From NCBI RefSeq assembly GCF_026151205.1, contig NC_087079.1, positions 6,916,169 through 6,980,168 of the forward strand: a stretch of DNA of 64,000 nt, in the 5' to 3' direction. Position numbers and translations under genes: made by a program. Of the stretch, positions 28,760 through 63,480 are shown one piece after another. Under the pieces are notes generated by a model. It had not been told where the DNA came from. It worked only from the letters and a program-made list of their open reading frames with translations, and ran no database searches. Each line of letters starts with the position of its first letter. The stretch's first letter is position 1. The stretch is from Bolinopsis microptera. Taxonomy: Eukaryota; Ctenophora; Tentaculata; Lobata; Bolinopsidae.

Positions 28760-31700
28760 TTAAACTAACTTGGGTTTCTTGGGCTCGATCTGTAAGGACA
28801 TCTCGTAGAGGGTCTCCTCGTCCAGTGCGTTTAGTTGTTGTAGAGGAGCTACTATTGAGGGGACAACTTCGAAATGGTAGGGCGTGTGCTGGGGGTGACA
28901 AATTAGAATAAACTGTTCATGTGTTATTTACTTCTTTAAATGTTAACTCAGGACTTTAAAATAAATAATAAGACTTTTGTTGGGTAAAGTTTGTTATAAA
29001 ACCACACGAACACTGAACAGTACCGGGAAGGGATCTGGACCTAATACAATTATAATTTATTATTAACCTAAATAAAAATTTACCTAACTATATTTTACCT
29101 GGTAAAGTCGGAGACGGTTAATAATGTCATTAATGTAGGTACACTTCATGAAGTTGATCATGCCATTAACTACTGTAGGGTTACACTCCGTAGCGAAAGT
29201 GAGGTCTGACATGAAGAGTCCAACGTAGGGGATACAGGGTGGGTTAGACTGAGGGGGAGGGTATTGTTAGTTAACGTAGGGGATACAGGGTGGGTTAGAC
29301 TGAGGGGGAGGGTATTGTTAGTTAACGTAGGGGATACAGGGTGGGTTAGACTGAGGGGGAGGGTATTGTTAGTTAACGTAGGGGATACAGGGTGGGTTAG
29401 ACTGAGGGGGAGGGTATTGTTAGTTAACGTAGGGGATACAGGGTGGGTTAGACTGAGGGGGAGGGTATTGTTAGTTAACGTAGGGGATACAGGGTGGGTT
29501 AGACTGAGGGGGAAGGTATTGTTAGTTAACGTAGGGGATACAGGGTGGGTTAGACTGAGGGGGAGGGTATTGTTAGTTAACGTAGGGGATACAGGGTGGG
29601 TTAGACTGAGGGGGAGGGTATTGTTAGTTAACGTAGGGGATACAGGGTGGGTTAGACTGAGGGGGAGGGTATTGTTAGTTAACGTAGGGGATACAGGGTG
29701 GGTTAGACTGAGGGGGAAGGTATTGTTAGTTAACGTAGGGGATACAGGGTGGGTTAGACTGAGGGGGAGGGTATTGTTAGTTAACGTAGGGGATACAGGG
29801 TGGGTTAGACTGAGGGGGAGGGTATTGTTAGTTAACGTAGGGGATACAGGGTGGGTTAGACTGAGGGGGAGGGTATTGTTAGTTAACGTAGGGGATACAG
29901 GGTGGGTTAGACTGAGGGGGAGGGTATTGTTAGTTAACGTAGGGGATACAGGGTGGGTTAGACTGAGGGGGAGGGTATTGTTAGTTAACGTAGGGGATAC
30001 AGGGTGGGTTAGACTGAGGGGGAGGGTATTGTTAGTTAACGTAGGGGATACAGGGTGGGTTAGACTGAGGGGGAGGGTATTGTTAGTTAACGTAGGGGAT
30101 ACAGGGTGGGTTAGACTGAGGGGGAGGGTATTGTTAGTTAACGTAGGGGATACAGGGTGGGTTAGACTGAGGGGGAGGGTATTGTTAGTTAACGTAGGGG
30201 ATACAGGGTGGGTTAGACTGAGGGGGTGGGTATTGTTAGTTAACGTAGGGGATACAGGGTGGGTTAGACTGAGGGGGGAGGGTATTGTTAGTTTCATTAT
30301 TGGTTTAATTATTAGTTTAATTATTAGTTTAATTATTAGTTTAATTATTAATTAATGGGTTGTTAATTATAAATTATTAGTAATCAATTAGTAGTTTTTT
30401 ATCGGAATGGGTTAAATTAGTTCAATCAGTAAAGGGTTCCTTTATCTGTAAACCAGTTCGTGATTTTCCATACTTTTAGAAACTCTAAAAAATATAGAGA
30501 GTCTAATATCGTTAAATTTCGTTTAACTTGAGTATATTATAATTAGACCGTCGTGAAAATTAAGCATGCATAATTGAAAGAAGTCTAAAGTTTGATAGAT
30601 TGTGAAAAACTCTGACAGACATGTGGATATCTATTTCTAAGCGATCGTGATCGCGCACAAATTGATACATTCAGAAATGGCAACAAATTGAGGTTTTGTG
30701 GGCCAGACAGCGAGTTAGGTGTCTTCTAAACGTCTGGTCTTGGTCTGCACTAATGGATCTTCGCGCTCTTCATGGGAACAAATAAGCTTGAAGAATTTCT
30801 TTAAATCTTAAAAAGTCTGTGAGTGTTTATCTGTCACCTGGGAGACTTTCTTGCGGAGGTTCCTGAAGTTACTGTTGGGCAGGATAATCTCGTACAGCTC
30901 GTCATTCCTCTGACATACCTTCCTCTCGACCTGGTGGTGGACGAAAATTAGATGAGTACTAATCTATAAATTTGTAAACAATCAAACTACTTGTATTAGA
31001 TGATTATTAAATTTAATCTATAAATTTGTTAACAATCAAACTACTTGTATTAGATGATTATTAATCTATAAATTTGTTAACAATCAAATTACTTGCATTA
31101 GATAATTATTAATCAATAAATCTGTAAACAAAAGGATTACCGTGTGATTAATTATTAAACTATAGCAACCGACACACATGGCTTAATTAGCACCTCCATA
31201 CAGTTATCAGTCGCTGAACTATAGCAATGCAATTAACATCAACTCGCTAAATGTTGATTAATTAATCCGATAGTTCGGACCCTCTAGACGCACGTGGATT
31301 CTAATAGCAGAGAAATTGTAAACTAATGTAAAGCGCAGTAGTAAGATTACTAAAGATCAGGATAACCCAGTATCCAGATCTAATCCCCTAATTACCCTAA
31401 TTACCCTGCTAAAAGATAACCCCACCTTATTCCAGCTAGCATGTAGCCGGCTGATGGCGCTTCCCTCCAGAGCGTTTATAATAGCTATAAAGGAGCTGAA
31501 GTTGTTCAGCTTGTACAGTTCGTCCGCGATTGAAATGAAGTCTGTGATCAGCTTCGCTCTGTTGGCTTTGTCTTTCTGGGCTAAGATTGACGTGGCTGAA
31601 ATAGTAGCAAGTATTAGAGTATTGGGTGAGGGGTCCTTAAATTCGATTGATGTGTATCTATACTCAGTTATGGAAATAATCTTACCTTGAAGTAGTGATT

Positions 31701-31975
31701 ATTAAAATATTGGCCCGAAAATGGTCTCAATCTAAACACAAATATCAAAAATCAGCTCTCTTACCAGCCCATCTAGTAAGGGTATTCATTCTCTCTGCGA
31801 AGTGAAGAATGTTCTTGGCTTGGTGGGAGTACTTTGGCTTGACCCACGCTTGGTTAACCAGCTCTATTGGCTTTATCTTGGCAAACAAAGCGAAATCCAG
31901 CATGGTTAATTGTCTTGCGATCTCTGGGGGACCGTGGTCGAACAAGGTGGCGTTAGCAGAGAGGTTGGGAGGCAG
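28760..31975 (-). CDS. RasGEF catalytic (CDC25 homology) domain exons
   Basis: Five exons: 31975-31765, 31595-31426, 30930-30838, 29248-29099, 28888-28760. Hallmarks in order: PPEIARQLTMLDFALFAKIK, then PIELVNQAWVK, then SGLEGSAISRL (the conserved block before helix H), NFRNLRKKVS, PPCIPYVGLFMSDLTF with its following GNP-like CNP, and the end block LDEETLYEMSLQIEP. Length and order match a complete CDC25 domain, so catalytic activity is likely. The protein stops about 10 residues after the domain, with no C-terminal RA domain or proline tail. That argues against SOS- and RalGDS-type architecture. Confidence 0.9.
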
Positions 31976-34900
31976 CTGAGAGGAGAGGATGGTTATTAAC
32001 AAGAATATAATGGAAATTCCGAGAAATACAGGCTATGTTATCTCCATTCTCCAGTGAGACCAATGTAATAGGAAGTTGTAAAACTCTACTTATCGGTATA
32101 CCTCACGACTAACACCTCCAAAGGTAGTGTTAATGCAACCTTTGTAAGAGTGTTAGTAACACCTAACTGCTAACATAACTAGACCCCCAATAAGTCTCAT
32201 TTAAATGGTTTTAGTAACACCTTGTACACGGTGTTTAAATGGTGTTAGTAACACCTTAGTGCAGCTTACTTTAAGAGGCGGGGTACGGTTATCTTCCTTC
32301 TTAGAAACTGGAACCTGCACCATCCCCCTCACAACCAGTAACTTCTGCCGTAATATCCGGTACTGTTGGGGGTTGTCATGTGACACACACGTGTGTATAA
32401 AGGACATAAACTCCTTCTGGAGGTGCGGGTTATCTGAAACAGGGAGGTGTTAGAAAGGTGTTAGAAAGGTGTTAGAAAGGTGTTAGAAAGGAGGTGTTAG
32501 AACGGAGGTTTCAGGAGTATTATTATTAGTGGAATTTGTAGATACAGTAGGAAGATGAGACTAAGTAAAGGGTGAGAAGATGAGGAGGAGGAAGCAAGAG
32601 TCAGGACGGGGGGGGGGGGGGGGGGGGGCCAATGACTACCAATGGAGACTTTTGGAGACTAAAAATCATGGGGACTAGAGGTCAACTCGTTGACGTAATT
32701 CACCATTTGTCCCCATAAGTCCCCAGAATTTTTGACAGTTATTTATGGTTTTCAAGTTAGTTTAATAACGATACGATCGAGATGTTTTGTCCAAGATAAG
32801 AGTAGGATAAATCTAAATGGGGACTAATGGAGACTTTTGGGGACTAAAAATCATCTAAATGGGGACTAATGGAGACTTTTGGGGACTAATGGGGACTAAA
32901 AATCATGGGGACTCGGGGTAAAATCGTTGACGTAATTTCCCAAGTCCCCAAAAGTAGTCATTGGCCCCCCCCCCCCCCCCCCCGTCAGGACACTAAAAAG
33001 GTTGACGTGCGCTTTTTTGTGTCACTTTCATCTCCGAACTTACTCTCGAAATCGTCTCCGTCCGTGACCCACAACTTGAGGCAGTTGATAACACCGTTCT
33101 GGATTCCTATCCGGTACTTGACAAACTCCTCCATAGTCATGTTCGGATCACGTGGTACATTGTACCGTTGTACCAGTTTCCGTAACAACTGCTTCGGAGT
33201 TGTGAACGCCTGAAACGAGCGGTTAGATTCCAGTTTTATGGGGGCAAAAACTTATTTTTATAAAGTATTTTAGTAATTTCCCGTTTACCTTTTTTTACGG
33301 TATTTATTTTCCTTCTTATAAATACTCGGTGTTTAAGTAATCTTTTCTGTTGATTTGTCGTCAAAGGCTGATTTAATAAGCAGTTAGCCTGTCAACTTGT
33401 AAAGTAGATCCTATAACTTCGCATTTTTTGGGGGCATTGAGCGCTGGGAATCTCTCTAAATTTCGTTTAGCTTGAATAATTTCGATCATGACAATCATCA
33501 AAATTAAGCATGCATAATTAAAAGCATTTTAAAGTCTAAAATATCGTGAAAAACGGTGACAGACACGTCCTGGACATATTAACACTTTTCACAATCCCAT
33601 TCTTAACGATCATAATAGCGCACAAATTGTTACATTTAGAAATGGCAACAATTTGAGGTTTGCGGTGCAAACAGTGGGTTGCGAGGCTGCACAACGCTGG
33701 TCTGGTCCATACTTTAATAATATATTAATGAGTAAACTTATTCACGAGTATTAAGCCGGCACCCAACTCTCTTTAAACACTTTACCCTTTTTAAAACACT
33801 GCGTTTTTCCACACAAACTGTCTGACTAGACATTTTGCAAATAGACAAAATCATTTCGTGCGGTCTAAACGGTCGGGACGGTAACCAAAGTGAGACAGGT
33901 CCCGCTTAGTTAAACTGTTTGTTAGTCAAGTTTTATTTGATTCATTTAACATGACTTCATTATAATCTCACAGTAGTGATTATAGCGATAAAGCTAACAA
34001 ATCTATAAGTTAGGGGTGATCATTTATCAGTATTACCTGGTAGGTAAGGAGGAAGACTTTAACAAAGTTTATCCGATAACTCCGCGTATCAGTGAGCAGC
34101 TCAACGAACCGGTTAAACGTCCCACTCTTGATCTGAAATAGCAGTTATTAGAACCTGTCAGCCGTTAAAGATAACATAATGTCTGGTTATTTAAAGGATT
34201 GCTCCTCTTTACTCTATATTTTAAATGGTGGAATTTAGCTCAAAATTCAAACGATAAGGTAATCCCCATCCAAACGATAAAATATCATTAAAACAGTTGC
34301 TCGGAAGTCTCATGGCACACCCGAGTCCACATGGTTTATAAGTTAAGTAAGGAGTAATTCCACCGTACTATAAATATCCACTAGTCTAGACTATTATCTG
34401 TCAATCCCTTCTTCATTTTAGTGGGTTTAATGTTGCCGAAATCCTAACCAAACCACTCAAAAACATGGTTAGATCATGTGTAAGCTTCACTAATATTAAT
34501 ATGGCAGAAACTTATTGAAAGTAAGTTCGTAATACTTAGCGAAAGGGAAGGATAAATTGCAAGAGTCTAGACCACTTCTGTCTTAGTGGCTCAGATATTA
34601 ATCAAGTCGGTAAGAAACTGGATGCGTTGAAGTTCCGCGGAACAGAGATACAATTTATAAGGAAAGCACGTATGAATCAAGCATGCTTGTCTTTGCATTT
34701 CGGGTATACTGTTCAACTCAATGGTTTAATTCTGTCAAACTGTGAAAGAGAAAACATGCAGATAAACCAAACATTCCTGCTTAACCAGGAGAAAATCCCA
34801 AGACGAACCTGTCCGTTTTGCTCCTTGATAAGGGTGGCCTCTATCTTGGAGTCGTCGTCCCAAATATTAATATCATCTTCCTCATATATCTTACTCTGCG

Positions 34901-37900
34901 CTCGTTTTACCCTTTCTAATGGTTTTCGAAGGATAACAGCCTCTGGCCCTTTTGGGTCAAATCTATTTGATGGCTCAATTCGTCCTGAAAAAAAGTAAAT
35001 AACTTTTAAAACTTTGCCTAGAATGGTTAAAATTCACTTCTCTGAAAAATACCACCATGCAATTGTTCAAATAAGGCACAATCCTATCGACTGTAAAACT
35101 CACGAGTTGACAGGATTGGTATTGGGGACGTTGGAGAGGTAGGAGAGGTTGGAGAGGTAGGAGAGGTGGGAGAGGTAGGAGAGGTGGGAGAGGTAGGAGA
35201 GGTGGGAGAGGTAGGAGAGGTAGGAGATGTGGGACACGATACCAACATGGGGCTAATATCAGCTAACATGGGCGCCGATACCGGTGAAGTTGGAGAACCA
35301 GTATCGTCCCTGATAACCAGACCACCTATATCCGGCTCACCCCCGTTTGTTTCTACCCCGTTAGTAGATTCATACGAGGTGACCTCCCCTCGTGTGGCTG
35401 TCTCCGCAAGGATCTTGTCTATCAGGTTTAGTGTTGGAGTAAGACAGTCGTTAGGACGAGGAGAGAATGGGGACATGATGGGGGTGTTGTTTTCTGAGCC
35501 AGAACAGTCGCTGAAGCTTCGAACTGAGCTGAAGTGGTACAAAGTTAGTGAACTGAGCTGAAGGGGGTACAAAGTTAGCGGTTATCTTTTATAACTTCGA
35601 TTTAGTTTGCGGAGTTATGTATCTGGGTTTTTGTAGCACCATTAAATATGTGTTTCACTGGTTCAAGCCATGATGAAGTGCTCAACCAATAGCATTCAAC
35701 TATAACACTGATTATACATTATAGTTATACATTGTACACTATACCTAAACTAGGCTGACTTACTTCAAATCAGTGCTATCAGTGCTTTCGTGCCGTTTCT
35801 TTGCTCTACCACGTCCCATCATGACAGAATTTCTGTTGTCATTGCAGGGACTCGAACTTAAGATCCTGCAACAAGGTTATTATTGTTAGAGGTGATTGAA
35901 AAAAAGTAATTATACTTTTAAGAGAGAGATTTACTGAGTTTGTTATTAAAATTTAAGTTATTTTCATCCTAGTAGCAGCTGATTTGCGATGAAATTGATC
36001 ACAATTTCATCAAAATGTGTCTCTTACCTTTTGAATTTGATAGCGATGGATGAATTAGGACTGATCTTGTTTTTGATAGCACACATTGTGAGATCCAGTG
36101 TGGTTTCATTGTGTTCTAAAGTGGAGGCTGCTGGAACCTGTAGAGAGGAGGTGTTACATTTAGATATCCTTAATGTAATACTTGAATACACTATCACGTC
36201 ATCTCAGAAGAACGGCTACATTCATGTCAATAAGTACCTAAGGTTTAGCTTATTTGTTATTGGTTATCAAACACATATTGCAATGTAACAGACTGACCCT
36301 GATTCCGTAGTATCTACAGAAGATGGCGTGGAGTTGCTGTAAAGGCATGCTGAAGTCAACCATAAACGTGTGAGATGTTTCCTCTTCACCGTGTAAAGAA
36401 ACCTGAAAGAGAAAGTTTCCTTAGTTCATATTCAGGCGCTACCAGTAAATAGTAACCAGTAACCTAGTAACCCAGTAACCTAGTAACCAGTAAATTTAGT
36501 TTATGGTGAAGTTCTAATCTTTACTTTCTGTTGATTTTTTTACTTTCTGCTGAAGATTTTATCTGCAATTCATGTAAGCAGTTACGTGATTATTGTTTAT
36601 ATTGATAACAACATTTTCTTCCTTCATTTTCTATCCCTAGTTTAGAACTTTTATTGAACAATTGATGACAAAGATCCACAAATTGCTACAATGCTGTCAG
36701 TCGCTAAAATTCATTTTGTTACTTTTTGCGACAAACCGATTGCTGTTGTTAAATAACATTCAACAGATGTTAAAAGTTAAAAGCCTTTTAATTCCATTGA
36801 TTTGCTTGTTGACCTTGTTAAAACAACCACAGTATTAATACAGTGTTTCAAAGTAGGATTTATTAAAGATACAAACTCGTACATCCAAACAACTTTACCG
36901 CATACAAGATCAAACAAATATTATCTAGACTTGAAGGCTCGTAGAGGATAATGATCAAACGATAGGAGATTCATCATTAATCAATTAAAATGTAACAGTT
37001 AATGAGTTAACAACAGTTAGCTATGAACAGCTAACATTCTCAATTTACAGTTAACAATGTAAAGTAACAAACAAGCAACAAACAGGGTACATTGGAGAGG
37101 TCTCATACATCGAAATAAGGAGTTACTGTGTGGTGCAGGCCCCTCTAACGACTAGGAGGAGACCTTATCAAGTACAAGTAAGCAAGTGTAAACTATGAAC
37201 AGTTAAGTAAGTGTAAAGCGCACCACGTGTAACAATGTAAACACGTGTAAAATGTAAAGTGTACTCACATGTATCGGCTGATGTATCATGTGAACGACCA
37301 GTGAGTCCTGTTTACTAGTCCCCTTATCCTCCAGAGCAGCACACAACTTCATGTTGTCCTGGATACGCTCGTTATCGTGCAGGTAGATACCGTACCATGA
37401 GGTAGGGTAGTCCAGACAACTGAAACACAAGGAAATATTTTAGATAGGTAGTAATAATGAAAATGTATGAGGTACAATGTGGTCCCTTTTCTAAAAACAA
37501 AATAATGTAACGGATAGAAAACATATTTTTTCCGGGAATTTCTCATGGATTGCTAATATCTGATAATTAATAATGGACAACTGGACATCAACTAAAAATG
37601 CAACAAATCCACACATTGTTCACTCACTTGGTACTGGTAATAATGCGGAGTACTTCCCCAGCTGTTATCTTATCTGAGATGTACATGTTTACAAAGTGTC
37701 TGGTGTACTGTTGGGATGTACTGTACACTTGTAGGTCGAATATAAACATCCGGAACCGGGCTCGCAGCTCTACTTTGTCCTGAAGAAAAGGGGGGGATAA
37801 GTGAGATAAGAGTGAGATAAGAGTTACAGAAAGATATGATAGTTGGATTAAAACAGGAATAATAGGTTCAAAAATTTCAATTATGTATTCATAATATGTT

Positions 37901-46900: not shown

Positions 46901-49900
46901 TCAAACCCTCTCGTACGATAAGTTGCAACTTGTTTTTCATACCCAATTAGTAAATGTGTCATATTTCAGCTTGATCTAGCAAATTCCAGAGATACTAACG
47001 AAGTTACTTTATGATATTATATAAATTATCCCGAGTGCCGCGGCGGGAGAATGTTGTACAGTTTTCATGGTTAACAAGAAAAGTTAGAACGTAACAGTAA
47101 CTGGGGCAACTAATTCATTAATTGCAATTTACATCCGGTGAAATTATAGTTAGTTACTGGTATTTGTGAGGATTCCAATTATTGTGAACAGTAACACGAG
47201 TAATATCACGTGTAATATCACATATTATCGCTCTTTTCAGCTGATTTTTCCTGTTTACATATTTTAGTCGGCTCCACAAACGGTTGCCAAGTTCTTCAGA
47301 CCGTTTTTTCCGCTAACCAATTAAAGAAGACAACTTAGTGTTAATAAGATGTGGTTACTATGGTTACTTCCGCCCACATACTCACGAGATATAATGTGGA
47401 CTAATCTAATGTGTTAATCAATATGGCCCGGTTAAATCGGTCTATGAAATGTATATATATATACATTTCATATATATATCAGGTGACGGTTTGACTAGAA
47501 ATAGCGAGCTAGTGCTTTGAACAAATCCATTTTAACATAGGTACTTAGTAAGCGGTACCGCGAGATATTCTTGATTATACCATTTTAAAAGTGTATCTAA
47601 TGTATTAATAATAATAGTTATTCCATTTTAAAAGTGTATCTAATGTATTAATAATACTTATGCCTTTTATAAATTTATAAAGTGGTCACAGTAAAAATGA
47701 CATCATTACTCTACATGTTATTGTTATTAAAATTATCATGTTAAAAATAAAACTAACCTTTTCAATCTCAGCGATAAGATGATAGAGCTTTACTGTGGGT
47801 GCTAATGTGAAACTAACCTTTTCAATCTCAGCGATAAGATGATAAAGCTTTACTGTTGGTGCTAATGTGAACAAGATCTCCTTTCCGAAACCCTTTTTCG
47901 AGCACAGCACTGAGGCCGGCACTTTCACCTGAAAGAGGAAAACATTTTACTGAGGCCGGCACTTTCAACTGAAAGAGGAAAACATTTTACTGAGGCCGGC
48001 ACTTTCACCTGAAAGAAGAAAACATTTTACTGAGGCCGGCACTTTCACCTGAAAGAAGAAAACATTTTACTGAGGCCGGCACTTACACCTGAAAGAGGAA
48101 AACATTTTACTGAGGCCGGCACTTTCACCTGAAAGAAGAAAACATTTTACTGAGGCCGGCACTTTCACCTGAAAGAAGAAAACATTTTACTGAGGCCGGC
48201 ACTTTCACCTGAAAGAAGAAAACATTTTACTGAGGCCGGCACTTTCACCTGAAAGAGGAAAACATTTTACTGAGGCCGGCACTTTCACCTGAAAGAAGAA
48301 AACATTTTACTGAGGCCGGCACTTTCACCTGAAAGAAGAAATCATTTTACTGAGGCCGGCACTTTCACCTGAAAGAGGAAAACATTTTACTGAGGGGAAC
48401 TTTCACCTGAAAGAGGAAAACATTTTACTGAGGCTGGCACTTTCACCTGAAAGAGGAAAACATTATACTGAGGCTGGCACTTTCAACTGAAAGAAGAAAA
48501 CATTTTACTGAGGCCGGCACTTTCACCTGAAAGAAGAAAACATTTTACTGAGGCCGGCACTTTCACCTGAAAGAAGAAAACATTTTACTGAGGCCGGCAC
48601 TTTCACCTGAAAGAGGAAAACATTTTACTGAGGCCGGCACTTTCACCTGAAAGAAGAAAACATTTTACTGAGGCCGGCACTTTCACCTGAAAGAAGAAAA
48701 CATTTTACTGAGGCCGGCACTTTCACCTGAAAGAGGAAAACATTTTACTGAGGCCGGCACTTTCACCTGAAAGAGGAAAACATTTTACTGAGGCCGGCAC
48801 TTTCACCTGAAAGAAGAAAACATTTTACTGAGGCCGGCACTTTCACCTGAAAGAAGAAAACATTTTACTGAGGCCGGCACTTTCACCTGAAAGAAGAAAA
48901 CATTTTACTGAGGCCGGCACTTTCACCTGAAAGAAGAAATCATTTTACTGAGGGGAACTTTCACCTGAAAGAGGAAAACATTTTACTTTCCGTCTCGTTA
49001 TGGTTTAGTAAATAATTATGGTTGTTATTTTGCTAGCAGTGATTTCAAACTGTGGTAGTTTTTTGGTTCATAGTAGCTACTTTCAAGTTTCATGTCAGAC
49101 AGAGAAATTCGGATATTAGAAATCCCAAAAAGGGGGAAGCGAAATGATCATGTCAAATTTCAAAGAGTCAAGACACGACATACATTTATACACTTATACA
49201 TTTTCATCTGGTCAACAAAAAGCGCTATTTGGCAGCGTGCCAACAAACTTCCGCACTAACAAAACAGAACACACTACTACTGCACAGGTAAAGTACTGCT
49301 AAACACTGACAGACTCTTCTCCACAGGACCCAGTAAACGTACACACTTGACACTTAACCTAACCACCCTAATTAACCCACTCACTTTACCTAGCCAGAAA
49401 GTCCTGTGGATCCCGGCTACCCAAAAGTCAGAACTTTTACCACCTTGTTTGATATCTCCGAGCACGTGGGTGGTTTTGCACGTGGGCGGTTTTTGCACAC
49501 CACGTGACAGGGTTTATAGTGTCACGTGATGTTGATTATCTCATACCACGTGGTACTTGCCGCCAGAAGTCTTGTAAGACTTCACACCGTGCCAGACGTA
49601 ACATCTGCCAGGTGACTGTATGAGTACTATTGTTTACATAACCAGGTTTAACCTGACATCTCGTCAAATCTTGATTACAACGAGTACCATAGTTACCATA
49701 GCAACGAGTCCTGTTACCACGTGACACGATACCACGTGATACAGCTCTAATTAGTCACGTGACAACCAATCTACCATCTGATTGGTAGGAATATGGAGAT
49801 TGGCATCATCGCTTACATTACAGGTGATTGAGGGTAGTGGTTGGGGCGTGTTGAAAGGTGGTTTACAGGTAAATATCAGGGATGTGGTGGAGAAGCTAAC

Positions 49901-52900
49901 TTGATATTACTATAACAGGGTGTAATAGAGGGAACTGAGAGAGACTGAGAGAGTGGTTATCAATAGAGCCGGGGATACAGATTACTTTGTAGGCTGCTGT
50001 AATGAGAGTGTTAACTATATCGCACGTGGGCGGTGATAACTACTGTTATCTATTGGCAGGGTAATGACTTGTCTAATCTTTAACAGACTGCTGCCGCGCG
50101 TGCTTCAAGTCTGTATTTTGGTTCTGTGTTTTAAAAATACGTGTTATTTTTAAATTTAAAGTGCACTGAAACAAGCCAACGCGATGATTTCAGTATGGAA
50201 TTTACGCCCAATTGTTAATTTTGTTATCATCGTTTAAAGAAATTTACAGGAGTTATTCCAGTTTACAGATCCTATTAATTGATATATAATATAATATATT
50301 ATATAAAGATATTAAAACCATTAATTTTTCCCACTGTCTGGCAGAAACCATCAGCGCATTGAAGATATTGCAAACTGTGATAAACACGCCCTGACTGCTA
50401 GTCTGCAAACTGTGATAAACACGCCCTGACTTGTCTGAAACTGGCGCTACCTCTCAAACAACCCTCTCTTAGTTTCATCAAATTACCACCAACATCACCA
50501 ACATTTCACCTTCAGTACACGTGTAAGATAATCTTCACTGGAGATTCTACACGCCTCACACTCGGTTAAAACACTATATTATATATACCTCAAACATTTC
50601 ACCACAAATACTCCACAAACACTTTAAACAGCACCACCGACCAAGCCCTACATAAAGTGGCAAATAGTAACTTCACCCCTGTAACCCTGGTACCTCGTAT
50701 GTAGCCCTACATAAAGTGGCAAATAGTAACTTCACCCCTGTAACCCTGGTACCTCGTATGTAGCCCTACATAAAGTGGCAAATAGTAACTTCACCTCTGT
50801 AACCCTGGTACCTCGTATGTAGCCCTACATAAAGTGGAAAATAGTAACTTCACCCCTGTAACCCTGGTACCTCGTATGTAGCCCTACATAAAGTGGCAAA
50901 TAGTAACTTCACCCCTGTAACCCTGGTACCTCGTATGTAGCCCTACATAAAGTGGCAAATAGTAACTTCACCTCTGTAACCCTGGTACCTCGTATGTAGC
51001 CCTACATAAAGTGGCAAATAGTAACTTCACCCCTGTAACCCTGGTACCTCGTATGTAGCCCTACATAAAGTGGCGAATAGTAACTTCACATCTGTAACCC
51101 TGGTACCTCGTATGTAGCCCTACATAAAGTGGCAAATAGTAACTTCACCTCTGTAACCCTGGTACCTCGTATGTAGCCCTACATAAAGTGGCAAATAGTA
51201 ACTTCACCCCTGTAACCCTGGTACCTCGTATGTAGCCCTACATAAAGTGGCAAATAGTAACTTCACCTCTGTAACCCTGGTACCTCGTATGTTTTTGCAA
51301 CTTCCGTCCTTAATCATGTCTCACACATTACTACACTGTATCTCTAGTACCAGCTGCATTACAAGATACTATCACATCACAGAGTACTTCATCACAAGAT
51401 TTTGAGCGCTTCTCTGCCAGTCTATGGGTTCCAAACATTCACACAATATGTACGTCAGTTCCTGCACAATGTTACAGAAGAGCTATATTGGTTATTTGAA
51501 TGATTCGGCCCCTCTAATAACTATATTATATTGGAGCTGTCCAACATACTCCAAACTATTTAAGGTATTTAACTGAACCTCTCGTTCCCTCTATCTACCC
51601 CACATTACTTTAGAATCTAATTCCATCCTGAATGTAATGCTCAGTAAAACCAAATTAAGGAATATCAATTAGAGAGCTTACCATGGTTACCAATATCAAT
51701 TAGAGAGGTTACCATGGTTACCAATATCAATTAGAGAGATTACCATGGGCACAAGGCACGTGATGGTATCTGGCAGATGTCACAACTACTCACTACTACT
51801 ACTACAGGTCAAAGTAAGTGCTATCCCATGTCATTACTGACAGGTAGTTTGATTAGCTAGAAGTGGGGAGGCAGGTATTATTCCACTGGGACTATTATAT
51901 AATGCATTTTGCATATTATTATGACAAAGATTTATCCTATATACCGTACACTAGTATTTTTTTTTCTAATGTCACTAGTAGTGAGGCAGGATAACAGCTC
52001 ACTCAGCAGCTAATGTCACTAGTAGTGAGACAGGATAACAGCTCACTCAGCAGCTAATGTCACTAGTAGTGAGGCAGGATAACAGCTCACTCAGCAGCTA
52101 ATGTCACTAGTAGTGAGGCAGGATAACAGCTCACTCAGCAGCTAATGTCACTAGTAGTGAGACAGGATAACAGCTCACTCAGCAGCTAATGTCACTAGTA
52201 GTGAGGCAGGATAACAGCTCACTCAGCAGCTAATGTCACTAGTAGTGAGGCAGGATAACAGCTCACTCAGCAGCTAATGTCACTAGTAGTGAGACAGGAT
52301 AACAGCTCACTCAGCAGCTAATGTCACTAGTAGTGAGGCAGGATAACAGCTCACTCAGCAGCTAATGTCACTAGTAGTGAGGCAGGATAACAGCTCACTC
52401 AGCAGCTAATGTCACTAGTAGTGAGGCAGGATAACAGCTCACTCAGCAACTAATGTCACTAGTAGTGAGACAGGATAAAAGCTCACTAAGCAGCTAATGT
52501 CACTAGTAGTGAGGCAGGATAACAGCTCACTCAGCAGCTAATGTCACTAGTAGTGAGGCAGGATAACAGCTCACTCAGCAGCTAATGTCACTAGTAGTGA
52601 GGCAGGATAACAGCTCACTAAGCAGCTAATGTCACTAGTAGTGAGACAGGATAACAGCTCACTCAGCAGCTAATGTCACTAGTAGTGAGGCAGGATAACT
52701 GCAGACTGTGTGTTGTCCGATTAACAAATACTTTAAAATTTGCCCAATTGATAGTTGTAACACTGCACTTGTAGTCTGTGCAAAGTCAGAACTCACTGGG
52801 AAACCGCAAAGTTCACGTCAGCCACACGGGTGTCAATTCCTGCTAAATTCTTCGGATTCTTCAGAATGTTCCCCCTGTGTTTGGTCAGTTGGCTTTGACA

Positions 52901-58900: not shown

Positions 58901-61900
58901 CTTAAAACCACTGCTTTATAAAATTTGCATATTATCCAGATGATATTATCATAAGGTCATTCATGATGATAATTGTTGAAAATCATTGCGAACTTGCGAA
59001 GCAGCTGATTTTATGGATTGCGTTTGAATTTTAACGCTTGAAATGCTATTAAGTATTGCTTAACAGATTACAGATATTACGGATCGTATTGAGATTCCTA
59101 AAATTACAACTAAATGCGGATTCAGCCGACTCCAGAGAAGCCAACTACTCTATTTTTAGTTTGGGGATTCTTTGGAAGAAGTTTCCCTAAAAATGTATAG
59201 AGATCTCGGATGAAATATGCAGTACATCGCTCTTAGAAATGTAGTTTATGAACGTACATACGGGATACAACTAGTCAAACATTTCTGAGAGTAGATTGAC
59301 TTTTAAGAAGACTTCAATTCTTCATTCTACTTCAACGGATTCTATGCTGATCACTGGTAATTCCATTGGCAATGTCGCTTCCTTATCGGAATTAATAATT
59401 GCTTGATAAAATGTTTTGCGTGACAAGCTGGGTGCAGAGTAATTCCCATTTGAAGGATTTGAAAAACCTTTTTAAATTATTACATGAAGCATTTGGGACT
59501 GCACTACGTCTAAGATCTTGCTACATGTTGCACGTGCAAGATGGGGAGGTATGTTGCACGTGCGCTCGCACAACATACCACCCCAGCACGTGCAGCCGGA
59601 GAACAATACACATCCTGCTCCGACCCCCGGAAACTGTCCTAACAAAACCTCATATACCCACTTATATTATTATAGTTGTGTGGTACAATGTACCAATACA
59701 GTGTACAGGTACTGTTGACTGTGTTATAATGCACACTGATAATAATACAATGTAATGTAGAGATCTGGAGGTGTGATTGGTACATTGCCATGGCTTCCAA
59801 ACTACACCGTTACTTCCAACAAGTTATCCTTTTGTAGGATAGTTACAAGATATCATCTCAATTTTAACAATTTCAACATAAGTTTCAACTTTTATTTACA
59901 AGATATTGTATAAGCTTAGTTACATGCTATCATCTCAATTTTCAGCAATTATTTTAGATCTTGAGGTCTGAAATGGAAGGAACCCTTAAGGGGGAAGTGT
60001 TATAATATGAAGTATTTGTTAACTGTTGGTAAATGAGATATAATTTTAGCATCTTAAAAAAGTTGCTTTATATTTCACTTCGAACAATTCTGTTTTCTTG
60101 TGACTTGGATTACTAATAGAAAAGTATTAGGTTATTAAGGCATGCAACCTTATAGCAAGTAGATATATTCGGCCTTCAGTAGCTTAATCAAGAATTTATT
60201 GACTAATATCTCCAAGGTCAAAATTATGCAGCAATATTTATTACAATTTTTAATCGCAGCAGCGTCGAAGATTGCAATTATAGGTTCAGTAATGACGTAA
60301 CCTTTCATTAAAACATTATTTTAGGTAGAGTATTGGAAACGGTTACTATATTTTAGGTAGAGTATTGGAAACGGTTACTATATTTTAGGTAGAGTATTGG
60401 AAACGGTTGCTGTGGAAACGGTTGCTGACGGAGGTAGACAGTTTGCTGACGTCATCAATTGTGTCGTTATGAAAGGAGTCTAAAATGGAAAAATCTTTTT
60501 TGACATAAAACGATCTTGCTAGTACGAGAACTAGTATGAGAACTGAATAACTCTGGTACCATAATCAAGATTTTAATGAAATGTTAAAGGCACATAGGTT
60601 ATATTTGTGTTCTATTTATGGTGGGAATTGTGTTCTCGTGTACCTGAGTCATCTAGATTCTAGATATCTACATAAATACAAATTGGATTACAATTTAAAT
60701 CTTTTCAATAAATATCTTGAAATGGTGGAAAAGAAGTTGAATAGATGAGATTGTAACTTAATTCAAGCTAGTCCTCCATATCCAATCTAGGTTATCGGGT
60801 ATTAAAATCCAATATTAAAATCCAATGTTGAGAACCTGATCTCGAAAATGGAGGTCCACTTAAGCCCATTTAATGAAGCTATAGTATCACACCAAATTAG
60901 GAATTTTCCCACAAAACTAGGCAGAAAATCGTTAATTAGGTAGGTCATCAAATATTGCAATTCATTATGAAATCGATTGTGGCTATTTGATATTGATGAC
61001 ATTAAAAAATATTGCTTTAAAACTCAAGGAGTTTGTGACCATATATGGACATTTTTGTAGCTTCATGAACTTTGGAACCTTGAACGAGGAGCCATTAAAA
61101 CAGGGGAAATATTGTAAGTTTCGTCATAAAGTTGGTCCTGGGAAGAACTCGAGTAACTCAAGAAATGTGGTAACCATTGCAACACCATGGTAACCATTGC
61201 ATTGCAACACCATGGTAACCATTGCAACATCATGACGAAAAGGAAGTGGTTAAATGTTGGGAAATGATGCAACTCAGTTAAAATTACAGTTTTCCACAGG
61301 TTGGTTTGTGACGCGTTGTGTAATCGATCAGGACTCTCAGCCAGACCATCTCCAAAATTTGGAGAGGCTTTATAACTCATCTCATGTCTGGGATTGCAGT
61401 TAACTCGTTACATTTATTTGCGAACCAATCCCCCTTCCTAAAATACTCTGTTTATTCTACGACATTATCAGAGCGAGATTGTATCTGATGTTACTAAGCT
61501 TAAGTGAGAGGAGTTGCTTAAATTTACAGTATCTGTTTGTTTGTGCAGAACTACAGGATTGTAACAAACAAAACATTGTTGGTTTTAACAACACAAACAT
61601 TGCAAATTAATAGCGTTGATAGTTAGATCATAATCATCACGACGCATCCTGCAGCAGAAATAACAATGTCTGACAAGCTGTTTTGTTATTTCTGGAGGAA
61701 ACTGTTTTGAGGAAAACATATCCTTATCTTTGCGATATGTTTGACATTAAACACCTTCACATGCCGAGAGACAATATTCACACAGCCAATAGTACCGTAG
61801 GTGGTGGAAATAAGCAGATAGTAGTACACTTAAGAGACTAACTAACGGTTAAACAACATCAGAAACTCCCGAGAAAGTGTTTTAATATTACCTGCGCTGC

Positions 61901-63480
61901 TGGGACCAGCAGATAGATCTGAAGTCCTGTTTGTGTCCGATGAAGAGAGAGTCGGAGGAGGATGTCAGACTCTCAGGGTAGTGGAGAGAGTTGGTGGTGC
62001 AGTAGGAGAGAGGGGTGCAAGGGGTGTTGTGATCTGGAACACCTGGGGAGACAAGGAGTTAAGTGGAGAGAGTTGGTGGTGCAGTAGGAGAGAGGGGTGC
62101 AAGGGGTGTTGTGATCTGGAACACCTGGGGAGACAAGGAGTTAAGTGGAGAGAGTTGGTGGTGCAGTAGGAGAGAGGGGTGCAAGGGGTGTTGTGATCTG
62201 GAACACCTGGGGAGACAAGGAGTTAAGTGGAGAGTTGGTGGTGCAGTAGGAGAGAGGGGTGCAAGGGGTGTTGTGATCTGGAACACCTGGGGAGACAAGG
62301 AGTTAAGTGGAGAGAGTTGGTGGTGCAGTAGGAGAGAGGGGTGCAAGGGGTGTTGTGATCTGGAACACCTGGGGAGACAAGGAGTTAAGTGGAGAGAGTT
62401 GGTGGTGCAGTAGGAGAGAGGGGTGCAAGGGGTGTTGTGATCTGGAACACCTGGGGAGACAAGGAGTTAAGTGGAGAGAGTTGGTGGTGCAGTAGGAGAG
62501 AGGGGTGCAAGGGGTGTTGTGATCTGGAACACCTGGGGAGACAAGGAGTTAAGTGGAGAGAGTTGGTGGTGCAGTAGGAGAGAGGGGTGCAAGGGGTGTT
62601 GTGATCTGGAACACCTGGGGAGACAAGGAGTTAAGTGGAGAGAGTTGGTGGTGCAGTAGGAGAGAGGGGTGCAAGGGGTGTTGTGATCTGGAACACCTGG
62701 GGAGACAAGGAGTTAAGTGGAGAGAGTTGGTGGTGCAGTAGGAGAGAGGGGTGCAAGGGGTGTTGTGATCTGGAACACCTGGGGAGACAAGGAGTTAAGT
62801 GGAGAGAGTTGGTGGTGCAGTAGGAGAGAGGGGTGCAAGGGGTGTTGTGATCTGGAACACCTGGGGAGACAAGGAGTTAAGTGGAGAGAGTTGGTGGTGC
62901 AGTAGGAGAGAGGGGTGCAAGGCAGGGACAAAAGGATTTCGCGGCATGTACGAAATCACGAAATTTTCCATTCTCCGCGACAAATTTTATGTATAGTTTA
63001 ATGTATAGCCTGTTAAATTTCGCGGTACCGCGATTTTTGGCCAAAATAATCGCGAAATCCTTTTGTCCCTGGTGCAAGGGGTGTTGTGATCTGGAACACC
63101 TGGGGAGACAAGGAGTTAAGTGGGGGTGTAGGGTGAGATATCATGGACATCAGAGGAAACTTTAGCATTAACTCCATCCAAACAGGTATCATTATACGTA
63201 TTTTTCTAATATTTGCGAGTATCAAACTCAATTGTGAAACATCTAAAAACTGTGAAACCCACCTTTGGAAACGACAGCGGTAACAGTCTTACCTTTGGAA
63301 ACGACAGCGGTGACAGTCTTACTCTCACTCATCAGGTCCCCAATGGTATCCAGCCCATCTAGACTGTGGAACTGCCTGTTAGGTGCCTTCTTCTCGTTAC
63401 CGTTCATGTTGTGAACACTGAAACTTCCTGTTCCCCGTCCTGATGTTTTACCCGTGATACTGTTCAGCCTGATCGTTCTC
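28760..63480 (-). CDS. Ras-family guanine nucleotide exchange factor with multiple ubiquitin-like modules, 5' partial
   Basis: A GEF of this type would load GTP onto a Ras/Rap-type GTPase at membranes. Twenty-five exons in gene order: 63480-63293, 62042-61892, 57154-56992, 47928-47818, 46025-45954, 40259-40200, 40054-39920, 39785-39700, 39474-39411, 38955-38840, 38435-38297, 37779-37628, 37419-37269, 36402-36298, 36137-36028, 35528-35104, 34984-34809, 34132-34037, 33209-33044, 32433-32270, 31975-31765, 31595-31426, 30930-30838, 29248-29099, 28888-28760. All 24 junctions agree in phase, giving about 1193 aa to a TAA stop. The C-terminal third has RasGEF_N and CDC25 homology; the middle has repeated modules with a (Y/F)-G-(V/I/L)-Y motif. 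The first exon enters in phase 1, so the gene starts outside the window. The family is clear but the subfamily is not: I found no cNMP, PDZ, PH or SH3 signature. Confidence 0.88.
29221..30290 (-). repeat. 51-bp tandem array of a 3' splice site, 21 copies
   Basis: The unit in gene sense is 25 nt of intron end (TAACTAACAATACCCTCCCC then CTCAG) plus 26 nt of exon start (TCTAACCCACCCTGTATCCC then CTACGT). The exon-proximal copy runs into the real exon, starting at 29248. Upstream units are near-identical; single-base variants occur at three or four places. In the exon frame every unit contains TAA, so an upstream acceptor would give a premature stop. The 51-bp period leaves two other frames open, producing spurious frames of over 360 codons on both strands. 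Confidence 0.92.
30514..30750. repeat. Interspersed repeat, copy 1
   Basis: A diverged copy of the sequence at 33458-33712 in the same orientation. Shared blocks include TAAATTTCGTTTA, AAAATTAAGCATGCATAATT, GTGAAAAAC, TGACAGACA, GCGCACAAATTG, AGAAATGGCAACAA and GGTCT near the end. It is intronic in the RasGEF gene. No coding frame and no clear terminal repeats are visible, so SINE or MITE cannot be decided. Confidence 0.75.
32270..34132 (-). CDS. RasGEF_N (REM) domain exons
   Basis: Exons 34132-34037, 33209-33044 and 32433-32270. The motif order is IKSGTFNRFVELLTD, FLLTYQ|AFTTPKQLLRKLV, then MEEFVKYRIGIQNGVINCLK and WVTDGDDFE. This is the classical REM arrangement in which FTTP, the (V/I)-x-x-x-(V/L)-K-x-W helix and DFE are diagnostic. 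The REM domain stabilises the catalytic helical hairpin. The last exon bridges to the catalytic domain with an unremarkable linker. Confidence 0.88.
32450..32512 (-). repeat. Short tandem repeat at the branch-point side of a 3' splice site
   Basis: Units of CCTTTCTAACA, about 12 nt each, recur four to five times in gene sense ending roughly 20 nt before the AG of the exon starting at 32433. Each unit has a polypyrimidine stretch and a CTAAC branch-point-like core, so the array multiplies candidate branch points. Confidence 0.7.
32608..32983. mobile_element. Non-autonomous DNA transposon with poly-G/poly-C terminal inverted repeats
   Basis: A 376-bp element is flanked by an exact 8-bp direct repeat GTCAGGAC (32600-32607 and 32984-32991), the expected target-site duplication. 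Its termini are a run of 21 G followed by CCAATGACTA at the left, and TAGTCATTGG followed by 19 C at the right, so they are inverted repeats. The interior has degenerate repeats of GGGGACTAATGGAGAC type and no coding frame. An 8-bp duplication fits hAT-like transposition, but the G-run terminus is unusual. It is inserted in an intron 53 bp from the exon ending at 33044. Confidence 0.85.
33458..33712. repeat. Interspersed repeat, copy 2
   Basis: It pairs with 30514-30750, with block identity over about 240 bp and small gaps. It lies in the intron between exons 33209-33044 and 34132-34037. Divergence implies it is older than the near-identical tandem arrays. Confidence 0.75.
34809..35528 (-). 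CDS. Ser/Thr/Pro linker exons with a (TSP)n run
   Basis: Exon 35528-35104 is the longest in the gene. It begins with SVRSFSDCSGSENN, has a Pro/Ser-rich stretch with acidic Thr/Glu runs, and ends in about 13 consecutive Thr-Ser-Pro triplets (35117-35235), followed by an intron at CAACTC|GTGAGT. Exon 34984-34809 is acidic and charged (YEEDDINIWDDD) and leads into RasGEF_N. TSP runs are candidate proline-directed kinase targets and would be disordered. This is the linker between the N-terminal modules and the catalytic unit. Confidence 0.8.
35521..35578 (-). repeat. Two-copy duplication of a 3' splice site
   Basis: Two units of 29 and 30 bp: in gene sense ACTTTGTACC, a short pyrimidine stretch, CTTCAG and CTCAGTTC. 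Both contain an acceptor AG|CTCAGTTC. Splicing at the exon-distal AG would read TAA after three codons, so only the AG before 35528 keeps the frame. Confidence 0.8.
36028..40259 (-). CDS. Repeated ubiquitin-like (RA/FERM-F0/F1-like) module exons
   Basis: Ten exons. Reading the spliced protein, three successive segments of about 90 residues share a pattern: a beta-strand start, a T-x-x-D-L-(I/L) helix, and the motif FGLYHP, YYGVYLPSNEE or WYGIYLHDNE, then a D(V/K)(L/V)EL ending. Exons 36402-36298 and 36137-36028 look like a fourth, shorter module ending IAIKFKR. The pattern resembles talin/kindlin F0-F1 or RA ubiquitin folds; this rests on motif resemblance only, and no structural comparison was possible. 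Such modules bind Ras/Rap GTPases or lipids in other proteins. Confidence 0.6.
38190..38285 (-). repeat. 9-bp minisatellite next to a 5' splice site
   Basis: About ten units of AAATGTGT(A) on the plus strand begin about 12 nt inside the intron that follows the exon ending at 38297. The repeat is downstream of the donor GTATGT and is continuous with it in composition. Confidence 0.75.
41485..41544. repeat. 60-bp dispersed duplicate, copy A
   Basis: It is identical, apart from one T/C difference, to 42925-42984, exactly 1440 bp away in the same orientation. Intronic. Confidence 0.9.
42328..42437. repeat. 7-bp tandem repeat (CACACTG)n
   Basis: About 15 units of CACACTG, flanked on both sides by the same CTGCACCACTTGT. 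It is intronic and open in several frames, so short Cys/Val or His/Cys shadow frames appear. Confidence 0.95.
42908..43001. repeat. 60-bp dispersed duplicate, copy B, inside a 19-bp direct repeat
   Basis: CACTAGACATGTTCTGTAG occurs at 42908-42926 and 42983-43001, bracketing a 56-bp segment that matches copy A at 41487-41542. The pattern looks like insertion of a copied fragment with a target duplication, or a templated repair event. Confidence 0.8.
43243..43460. repeat. 12-bp tandem repeat (CAGTAGTAGTAA)n
   Basis: About 18 units with one shortened copy near 43400. Intronic in the RasGEF gene. Confidence 0.95.
45954..63480 (-). CDS. N-terminal exons present in the window
   Basis: Exons 63480-63293, 62042-61892, 57154-56992, 47928-47818 and 46025-45954, separated by introns up to 9 kb. 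The first encodes a basic Ser/Gly-rich segment, the second and third a Ser/Thr-rich and then charged stretch (GTTDELHLSGTAEELRFEE). The end of the third with the fourth and fifth gives a beta-rich segment (KEVTVKVKVPAS, ILFTLAPTVKLYHLIAEIEK) that could be the first ubiquitin-like module. Exons 1 and 4 each have a second in-frame donor in a tandem duplication (63263 and 47758). Confidence 0.7.
46031..46117 (-). repeat. 10-bp repeat upstream of a 3' splice site
   Basis: Units of the type TTTCTAAATA or TTTCTAAAGA in gene sense recur about nine times, ending about 10 nt before the acceptor of the exon starting at 46025. Each unit offers a TTCTAA branch-point-like core. Confidence 0.75.
46837..46886. 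repeat. Near-perfect 24-bp inverted repeat
   Basis: The arms ATTGCATGCGGAG... and ...CTCCGCATGCAAT pair at 22 of 24 positions around a 2-nt centre. It lies in an intron of the RasGEF gene and could extrude or fold as a hairpin. Confidence 0.85.
47443..47472. repeat. 30-bp perfect palindrome with an AT core
   Basis: TATGAAATGTATATA followed directly by its complement. The AT-rich centre makes it a potential cruciform or fragile site. Intronic. Confidence 0.85.
47758..47877 (-). repeat. 60-bp duplication of exon end and 5' splice site
   Basis: Two direct 60-bp copies meet at 47817/47818. Each ends with GAAAAG|GTTAGT in gene sense, so the exon starting at 47928 can end at 47818 or at 47758. 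The longer form adds 20 residues (VSFTLAPTVKLYHLIAEIEK), which are a near copy of the preceding ones, and stays in frame. Confidence 0.88.
47909..48985 (-). repeat. 40-bp tandem array of a 3' splice site, about 27 copies
   Basis: The unit in gene sense is AAAATGTTTTCCTCTTTCAG followed by GTGAAAGTGCCGGCCTCAGT: 20 nt of intron end and 20 nt of exon start. The copy at the left end runs into the real exon starting at 47928. Two shortened variants (GAGGGGAAC instead of GAGGCCGGC) near 48389 and 48949 mark the ends of two blocks of about 13 units, implying block duplication. Upstream acceptors would shift the frame or reach TGA. Confidence 0.92.
49463..49761. promoter_or_regulatory. Cluster of eight CACGTG palindromes
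   Basis: CACGTG at 49463, 49479, 49501, 49523, 49547, 49718, 49733 and 49756. Two have the ten-base form GTCACGTGA(C/T), the extended E-box bound by USF, MITF and TFEB-type factors in animals. It lies in the 9-kb intron of the RasGEF gene. An enhancer role is inference. Confidence 0.4.
50646..51290. repeat. 59-bp tandem array, 11 copies
   Basis: The unit starts CCCTACATAAAGTGGCAAAT and contains GTAACCCTGGTACC; copies start every 59 bp from 50646 to 51236. Differences are few (CCCC/CCTC, one GGAA, one GCGA). Intronic; it does not include a recognised exon edge. Confidence 0.92.
51967..52699. repeat. 44-bp tandem array, 17 copies
   Basis: The unit is TAATGTCACTAGTAGTGAGG then CAGGATAACAGCTCACTCAG and CAGC. 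A near-palindrome TCACTAGTAGTGA sits in each. A GAGGCAG/GAGACAG variant recurs mostly every third or fourth unit, so there is a higher-order repeat. Intronic. Confidence 0.92.
53876..54005. repeat. 66-bp direct duplication
   Basis: The segment from ATGAAATGTAGGTCTCTGC to GCATTATAGCAGAAC occurs twice in tandem (near 53883 and 53948) with no internal difference that I see. Intronic. Confidence 0.85.
57155..61891 (-). other. Intron of the RasGEF gene (4.7 kb)
   Basis: Mostly unique AT-rich sequence. It has a 29-bp duplication with CACGTG (57419-57479), a 32-bp triplication near 60329-60420, a CAACACCATGGTAACCATTG duplication near 61170-61215 and three CACGTG at 59527-59592. No exon recognised. 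Confidence 0.6.
61981..63122 (-). repeat. 82-bp tandem array of a 3' splice site, 12 copies
   Basis: The unit in gene sense is CACTTAACTCCTTGTCTCCC then CAG and 59 nt of exon start (GTGTTCCAGATCACAACACC and so on). Acceptors precede 62042, 62124, 62206, 62286, 62368, 62450, 62532, 62614, 62696, 62778, 62860 and 63099; one unit is 80 bp. The last unit but one is split by the transposon at 62923. The exon 62042-61892 uses the left-most copy; all others would reach a stop. Confidence 0.92.
62923..63071. mobile_element. 149-bp hAT-like MITE inserted in the splice-site array
   Basis: Perfect 21-bp terminal inverted repeats (CAGGGACAAAAGGATTTCGC plus one base) and an 8-bp target duplication GTGCAAGG (62915-62922, 63072-63079). 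The CAGGG terminus and the 8-bp duplication are typical of hAT elements. There is no coding capacity. The interior holds further inverted segments of GCGGTACCGC type. It interrupts one 82-bp unit, so it arrived after that unit existed, and it has not been copied by later array growth. Confidence 0.92.
63262..63321 (-). repeat. 30-bp duplication of a 5' splice site
   Basis: Two direct 30-bp copies; each carries TCCAAAG|GT in gene sense (GTAAGA for the inner copy, GTGGGT for the outer). The exon starting at 63480 can end at 63293 or 63263. The longer form adds 10 residues (KTVTAVVSK type, a copy of the preceding ones) in the same frame. Confidence 0.85.

Follow-up and report, generated by a model that had tools for sequence, protein, structure and literature searches.

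Tandem arrays across splice junctions of a RasGEF gene and of other genes in the ctenophore Bolinopsis microptera

Introduction

Minisatellite-like duplications over intron-exon boundaries have been described in amphioxus, where they are called "mirages". In the accessible portions of the two reports, the genes concerned are Adh3, the globins BflGb6 and BflGb9, PGBD5 and troponin C (PMC3087553; PMC3902484). The same portions describe a length instability of the arrays, between alleles or somatically, and report or suggest that splicing is normal (PMC3087553; PMC3902484). Intron gain by tandem duplication is a related process, for which the available part of one account gives ATP2A1, the potato RdRp and 24-bp repeats of fission yeast (PMC4974935).

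The locus presented here is a RasGEF gene of the ctenophore Bolinopsis microptera, contained in a window of 64,000 nucleotides (contig NC_087079.1, positions 6,916,169 to 6,980,168), to which the coordinates below refer. As far as the accessible portions of the amphioxus reports go, the likeness with mirages is close: the repeat unit includes the exon-intron boundary, 5' and 3' boundaries are both involved, and the copies bear AG/GT signals in units of varying length. By the same portions, the ctenophore arrays are larger, up to ~52 copies versus 3 and 6 in the BflGb6 haplotypes, and, unlike the gene-by-gene amphioxus reports, they were sampled over 484 edges. The structure would hence belong to the known mirage kind, found here in a lineage that is probably new for it. 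No earlier ctenophore report of mirages was found in the open-licence part of PubMed Central, where one of the literature searches was worded with amphioxus and says nothing on absence from other groups.

The RasGEF Gene

A gene model, Pfam and a spliced alignment delineate the gene on the minus strand:

28760..63480, minus strand: RasGEF gene, 27 exons, 1260 aa without a stop
63480-63263, minus strand: E1, first end exon
28888-28760, minus strand: E27, last end exon

The model has 26 introns and 53 counted edges, in place of the 24 junctions listed in the sequence-only reading, and its exons, spliced at GT/AG, read as a single open frame of 1,260 residues. The product contains RasGEF (E 3.8e-56), RasGEF_N and FERM_f0 domains according to Pfam; the real 5' end of the gene may lie upstream of E1. 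An independent reference, 2ije, was used to guide a spliced alignment, which recovers all four introns from E23 to E27, including the E26 acceptor at 29248, within its own array. This entry is deposited under the name "Guanine nucleotide-releasing protein", and we take it to be RasGRF1. Coding exon E18 carries a Thr-Ser-Pro repeat of 9 bp (window 35122-35234).

Tandem Arrays at the Junctions of the RasGEF Gene

Six junction duplications had been read from the letters of this gene, and TRF found all of them, with periods and copy numbers that match. They lie at 6 of the 53 edges, four acceptors and two donors:

29222..30293, minus strand: E26 acceptor array, 51 bp x 21.0 (TRF)
35521..35578, minus strand: E18 acceptor, two copies of 29/30 bp (TRF)
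47750..47871, minus strand: E4 donor, 60 bp x 2.0 (TRF)
47909..48987, minus strand: E4 acceptor array, 40 bp x 27.1 (TRF)
61980..62922, minus strand: E2 acceptor array, 82 bp x 11.5 (TRF)
62923..63071, minus strand: 149-bp MITE-like element, CAGGGACAAAAGG...CCTTTTGTCCCTG, inside the E2 array
63071..63125, minus strand: extra partial copy of the 82-bp unit, beyond the inserted element (genome match C8:6979239-6979293)
63261..63322, minus strand: E1 donor, 30 bp x 2.1 (TRF)

Five introns are concerned, intron 1 being affected at both ends by different units. A strict rule, which asks for 4 nt or more of the TRF call to either side of the edge, is passed by 5 of the 53 edges; the E1 donor passes it only with the first donor copy taken as the edge, TRF stopping 2 nt past the second.

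The E26 unit consists of 24 nt of intron (ACTAAC, pyrimidines and CAG) and 27 nt of exon, the E4 acceptor unit of 20 nt of each, with CAG before the junction and GTGAAA behind it in most copies, and the E2 unit of 19 nt of intron and 63 nt of exon. The E18 array extends 8 nt into the exon, and both copies of the E4 donor read gttagt. ACTAAC and TTAACT are branch-point-like motifs, and one or the other is contained in the intron portions of the E26 and E2 units. Inside the long arrays, the identity given by TRF is 92-100%. Short repeats had also been noticed on the branch-point side of other acceptors, and TRF indeed places arrays 8-17 nt upstream at E1, E5, E22 and E25.

Two further arrays of intron 3 are at no recognised junction:

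50644..51292, minus strand: 59-bp x 11 array (TRF)
51966..52699, minus strand: 44-bp x 16.7 array (TRF)

In many copies, the 59-bp unit shows an acceptor-like ttacag followed by AGGTGAAG, and this array could derive from an exon that has gone unrecognised. The ordinary intronic minisatellites of the gene are similar to the junction arrays in periods and copy numbers. Unlike them, the straddling arrays, here and in the other genes described below, reach 7-63 nt into the coding exon.

The MITE-like element is bordered by an 8-bp repeat, CCTTGCAC, and its ends are hAT-like. It is a high-copy element: a genome search gave 892 candidates, and the 40 that were scored are 97-100% identical. As it sits inside the E2 array, this array is older than one transposition.

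Decoy Copies and the Reading Frame

The splice signals of the repeated copies are intact: in ten arrays, none of the 372 AG/GT positions deviates from the anchored copy, and by matrix the decoy acceptors of the RasGEF gene score within ~2 bits of the authentic site. Each of its 58 acceptor decoys would nevertheless lead to a premature stop (20/20 at E26, 26/26 at E4, 1/1 at E18 and 11/11 at E2, the last count including the copy past the inserted element). The two-copy donors, on the contrary, are both in frame, the second E4 donor adding 20 aa and the two E1 donors differing by 10 aa. In the other genes, decoys were scored in four of the eight donor arrays and two of the three acceptor arrays. 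A stop falls in the added piece for 100 of the 103 donor decoys, the remaining three shifting the frame, and for all 15 acceptor decoys; one of the ten decoys of L044 is too close to the locus end for a matrix score.

Judged by the reading frame, the protein-making copy would be the one that touches the exon body, save for the two in-frame donors, and the spliceosome would use this exon-proximal copy. The expansion would be tolerated because growth falls on the intron side. Tolerance then follows as a consequence of the geometry, and a special mechanism is not needed.

Decoys decaying under selection were looked for and none was seen. Variation in the 9-nt splice context is, if anything, lower than in the rest of the unit (2/90 versus 40/406 unit positions, P = 0.019), a comparison biased by mismatches at unit ends. 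The arrays could be functional, for example if decoys diverted some transcripts to decay and thereby set expression; the intact AG/GT, the less variable context and the stop caused by every acceptor decoy of the RasGEF gene are in line with this. However, the context test is probably inflated by the unit-end mismatches, the three units that were tested are private to the RasGEF gene, and the presence of an array differs between two close paralogues, L010 and L011. A function of this kind is very improbable.

Straddling Arrays and Chance in the RasGEF Gene

Twenty-three arrays of period at least 20 are present in the RasGEF gene, and five of them extend across an edge by 4 nt or more in either direction. 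The excess over chance depends on the null that is chosen. Under uniform placement, 4.4 straddlers are expected, and there is no excess (P = 0.45); uniform placement was discarded as the only null, since arrays may then cover whole exons. A founder-unit null gives an expectation of 1.1 (P = 0.003), as does placement limited to introns or to one edge (P = 0.004), and the founder null with array-inflated introns collapsed gives 1.36 (P = 0.013). Because the RasGEF gene had been picked for its appearance, other genes were tested.

Junction Arrays in Other Genes

The test families were myosin heads, kinesin motors, other RasGEF genes, CCT chaperonins and SNF2 helicases, with exons located by Pfam. 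Gene models came from spliced alignments, in which the references were paralogues from the same genome, intron-poor or in a single frame, and for the RasGEF genes the protein of the RasGEF gene above and 2ije. From the family searches, the best 65 of 94 scored candidates were listed for myosin and the best 122 of 127 for kinesin. Left out were one myosin, one kinesin and one RasGEF place, four of CCT and six of SNF2, most of them isolated or with a single exon. The reference, L001, had contributed 11 edges and one array to earlier counts and was removed from the final set.

A filter dropped exons below 15 aligned residues or 28% identity, and edges whose matrix score was not above 0. It removed the L011 acceptor (72 bp x 3.1) and the acceptor arrays of L040 (edge score -0.2) and L032 (26 bp x 112; only 3 nt into the exon), all of which would have counted, or nearly so, in favour. 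It also removed tiny weak exons aligned in or beside arrays (L006, L009, L010, L011, L016 and L040-L045).

With 298 confident exons, 11 of 484 edges lie within arrays of period at least 20, three of them acceptors and eight donors. For example:

L032, kinesin donor array: 33 bp x ~52, 26 nt of exon and gtaagtt
L043, donor array: 35 bp x 25, 30 nt of exon and the donor start
L013, myosin donor array: 40 bp x 22, copies without a single difference
L044, acceptor array: 49 bp x 10.6, the acceptor and 30 nt of exon

The RasGEF gene is therefore not special in kind, as it had seemed when read by itself, even if its own rate (5/53) is higher.

An artefact of repeat assembly is an extremely unlikely source of these structures. 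A single assembly is the basis of the analysis and the copies of L013 are without differences, as such an artefact would have it, but the structure recurs with other units in many genes and on several chromosomes, variants and small indels are found among the copies of most arrays, and a mobile element lies within the E2 array.

Under the founder-duplication null, 11 of the 67 arrays of the test set straddle an edge against 5.16 expected (P = 0.017), and with at least five copies 7 of 21 against 1.79 (P = 0.0025). A first version of this statistic (11 versus 6.39, P = 0.061) was rejected, as higher-order periods inflated the expectation, and basic periods were adopted. A looser exon filter gives 11/71 versus 6.67 (P = 0.077) and, with at least five copies, 7/22 versus 2.26 (P = 0.009). 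The kinesins hold 10 of the 11 straddlers (10 of 39 arrays, 3.84 expected), the myosins show one among 23 arrays, and the other RasGEF, CCT and SNF2 genes together none among five. In the CCT and SNF2 replicate, no straddler was found at 93 edges, with only four arrays and little power. Twenty of the 21 arrays with at least five copies come from two families (5 myosin, 15 kinesin).

A shifted-edge control, in a set without CCT and SNF2 and with L001 still included, found terminal units across 11/402 true edges versus 91/9,063 intron positions 20-400 nt away. The ratio is 2.7, or 4.6 for arrays with at least five copies. The profile has its maximum 0-20 nt from the junction and drops at 40-100 nt.

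The junction excess is moderate and rests mostly on kinesins. The alternative raised in the sequence-only reading, by which duplication in this genome prefers splice junctions, has moderate support from the independent gene set. That junctions are preferred sites of minisatellite birth or amplification, with arrays of near-identical splice sites at ~2% of exon edges as the outcome, is a view that we hold tentatively. The arrays could also arise with no junction preference, in a minisatellite-rich genome where chance crossings persist if the protein is unbroken. This is likewise conceivable, with some doubt, and would fit the uniform placement null in the RasGEF gene (5 observed, 4.4 expected), the lumpiness of the sample, in which myosin and kinesin supply nearly all arrays of at least five copies, the absence of straddlers from CCT and SNF2, albeit with only four arrays of period at least 20, and the P of 0.077 under the looser filter. 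On the other side are the straddlers of the test set, more numerous than the founder null expects (P = 0.017, and P = 0.0025 for arrays of five copies or more), and the shifted-edge profile, which is highest within 20 nt of the junction. The best reading is that local birth of minisatellites tolerates junctions; it may also favour them.

Origin and Age of the Arrays

In a search of the 265-Mb assembly, which can miss matches, the 51-, 40- and 82-bp units had no match outside their own loci. The duplications had been considered independent events, and this is borne out by units that are unrelated and by these three being confined to their own loci. A dispersed origin of the three long-array units was also considered and has no support, other genomic copies not having been found in this one search, which can miss them. 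Introner elements are repeated sequences that bear splice sites and form dispersed families. The three long-array units differ from them in being present at one locus each, within the reach of a search that can miss copies.

Close paralogues allow a comparison. L010 and L011 are inverted C11 myosin copies ~140 kb apart, 91-98% identical by segment. L011 carries a 72-bp acceptor unit 3.1 times and L010 once, at an exon below the confidence filter, and this difference could be a loss instead of a gain. The kinesin paralogues L021/L022 and L024/L025 are 97-100% identical in aligned blocks, with introns of different lengths, and intronic arrays of L021 are missing from L022.

The sequence-only reading had raised the creation of introns, or the shifting of splice sites, by tandem duplication of AGGT-bearing segments (the Rogers model), caught in progress in this gene. 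In the accessible text on such intron gain, the duplicated DNA bears splice signals, as it does here (PMC4974935). AG directly followed by GT occurs at one place within the 40-bp and 82-bp units, the E1 and E4 donor duplications are in frame, so that edges could shift, and straddled kinesin introns are somewhat less often common to paralogues (2 of 9 versus 55 of 118 other introns). This difference in sharing is, however, not significant (P = 0.19); that the array-bearing introns are young is suggestive only. Moreover, GT is missing behind the acceptor AG in the 51-bp and 29/30-bp units, and none of the five affected introns has both splice sites in one array: the array is on one edge, its partner splice site lies outside, and the two ends of intron 1 are in different units. 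Rogers-type gain, as presented in the accessible text, places copies of the same duplicated segment at either end of the new intron, a layout that the five RasGEF introns do not have. Intron creation caught in progress is not supported by this comparison, and the Rogers model is a very improbable explanation of the arrays.

A Possible Course of Events

The arrays are, we believe with good confidence, junction-spanning minisatellites of the mirage type, born locally, in which the exon-proximal copy keeps the protein. At the start, a short segment that happens to hold a splice junction would be duplicated locally in tandem, a step supported by the search above, in which the three long-array units had no further source in the genome. 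Unequal exchange or slippage would then expand some of the duplicates, to 10-50 copies; we infer this because the long arrays are 92-100% identical and two close paralogues differ in copy number (3.1 versus 1). The gene would survive through the copy at the exon body, the last one for acceptors and the first one for donors, which keeps the frame, and the intron-side copies would be removed if the exon-proximal site is used. Among near-identical sites, the spliceosome would prefer the exon-proximal one, most simply by exon definition. Junction arrays stand at ~2% of the sampled edges, 1.6-4 times the founder-null frequency according to the filter. The excess could reflect a preferred birth at junctions, a preferred amplification or a higher duplication of exon-proximal DNA.

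With 10-50 near-identical sites and one position that preserves the protein, these arrays are natural splice-site competition experiments, by which intron versus exon definition and scanning rules can be tested in a lineage remote from the usual models. At ~2% of the sampled edges (11/484), they could be numerous genome-wide. They are raw material for splice-site shifts, the two donor duplications that stay in frame being examples, and the duplication model of intron origin can be tested on them. Comb jellies are far from amphioxus; hence, the structure may be a general consequence of a genome rich in minisatellites. If the junction preference is true, the species would be a natural genome-wide assay of exon-proximal site choice among many sites.

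Other Observations

On the plus strand of the window, coding-looking repeats extend over 18193-23076, with a 21-bp unit present 20 times and a 30/60-bp unit ~47 times, the latter with CAACAACCAGGGCAACATCCATTGCCAGGA units. This suggests a gene for a structural protein rich in Q, P and G. Elsewhere in the genome, receptor L055 has as its best solved relative the comb-jelly receptor ML032222a, of Mnemiopsis (221 bits), and among the 60 of 237 matches listed for receptor L056 vertebrate kainate receptors come first. Ten of the 32 matches listed for ionotropic glutamate receptors, including loci L055 and L056, are single open frames of 900-990 aa. These frames are apparently intronless, in an otherwise intron-rich genome.
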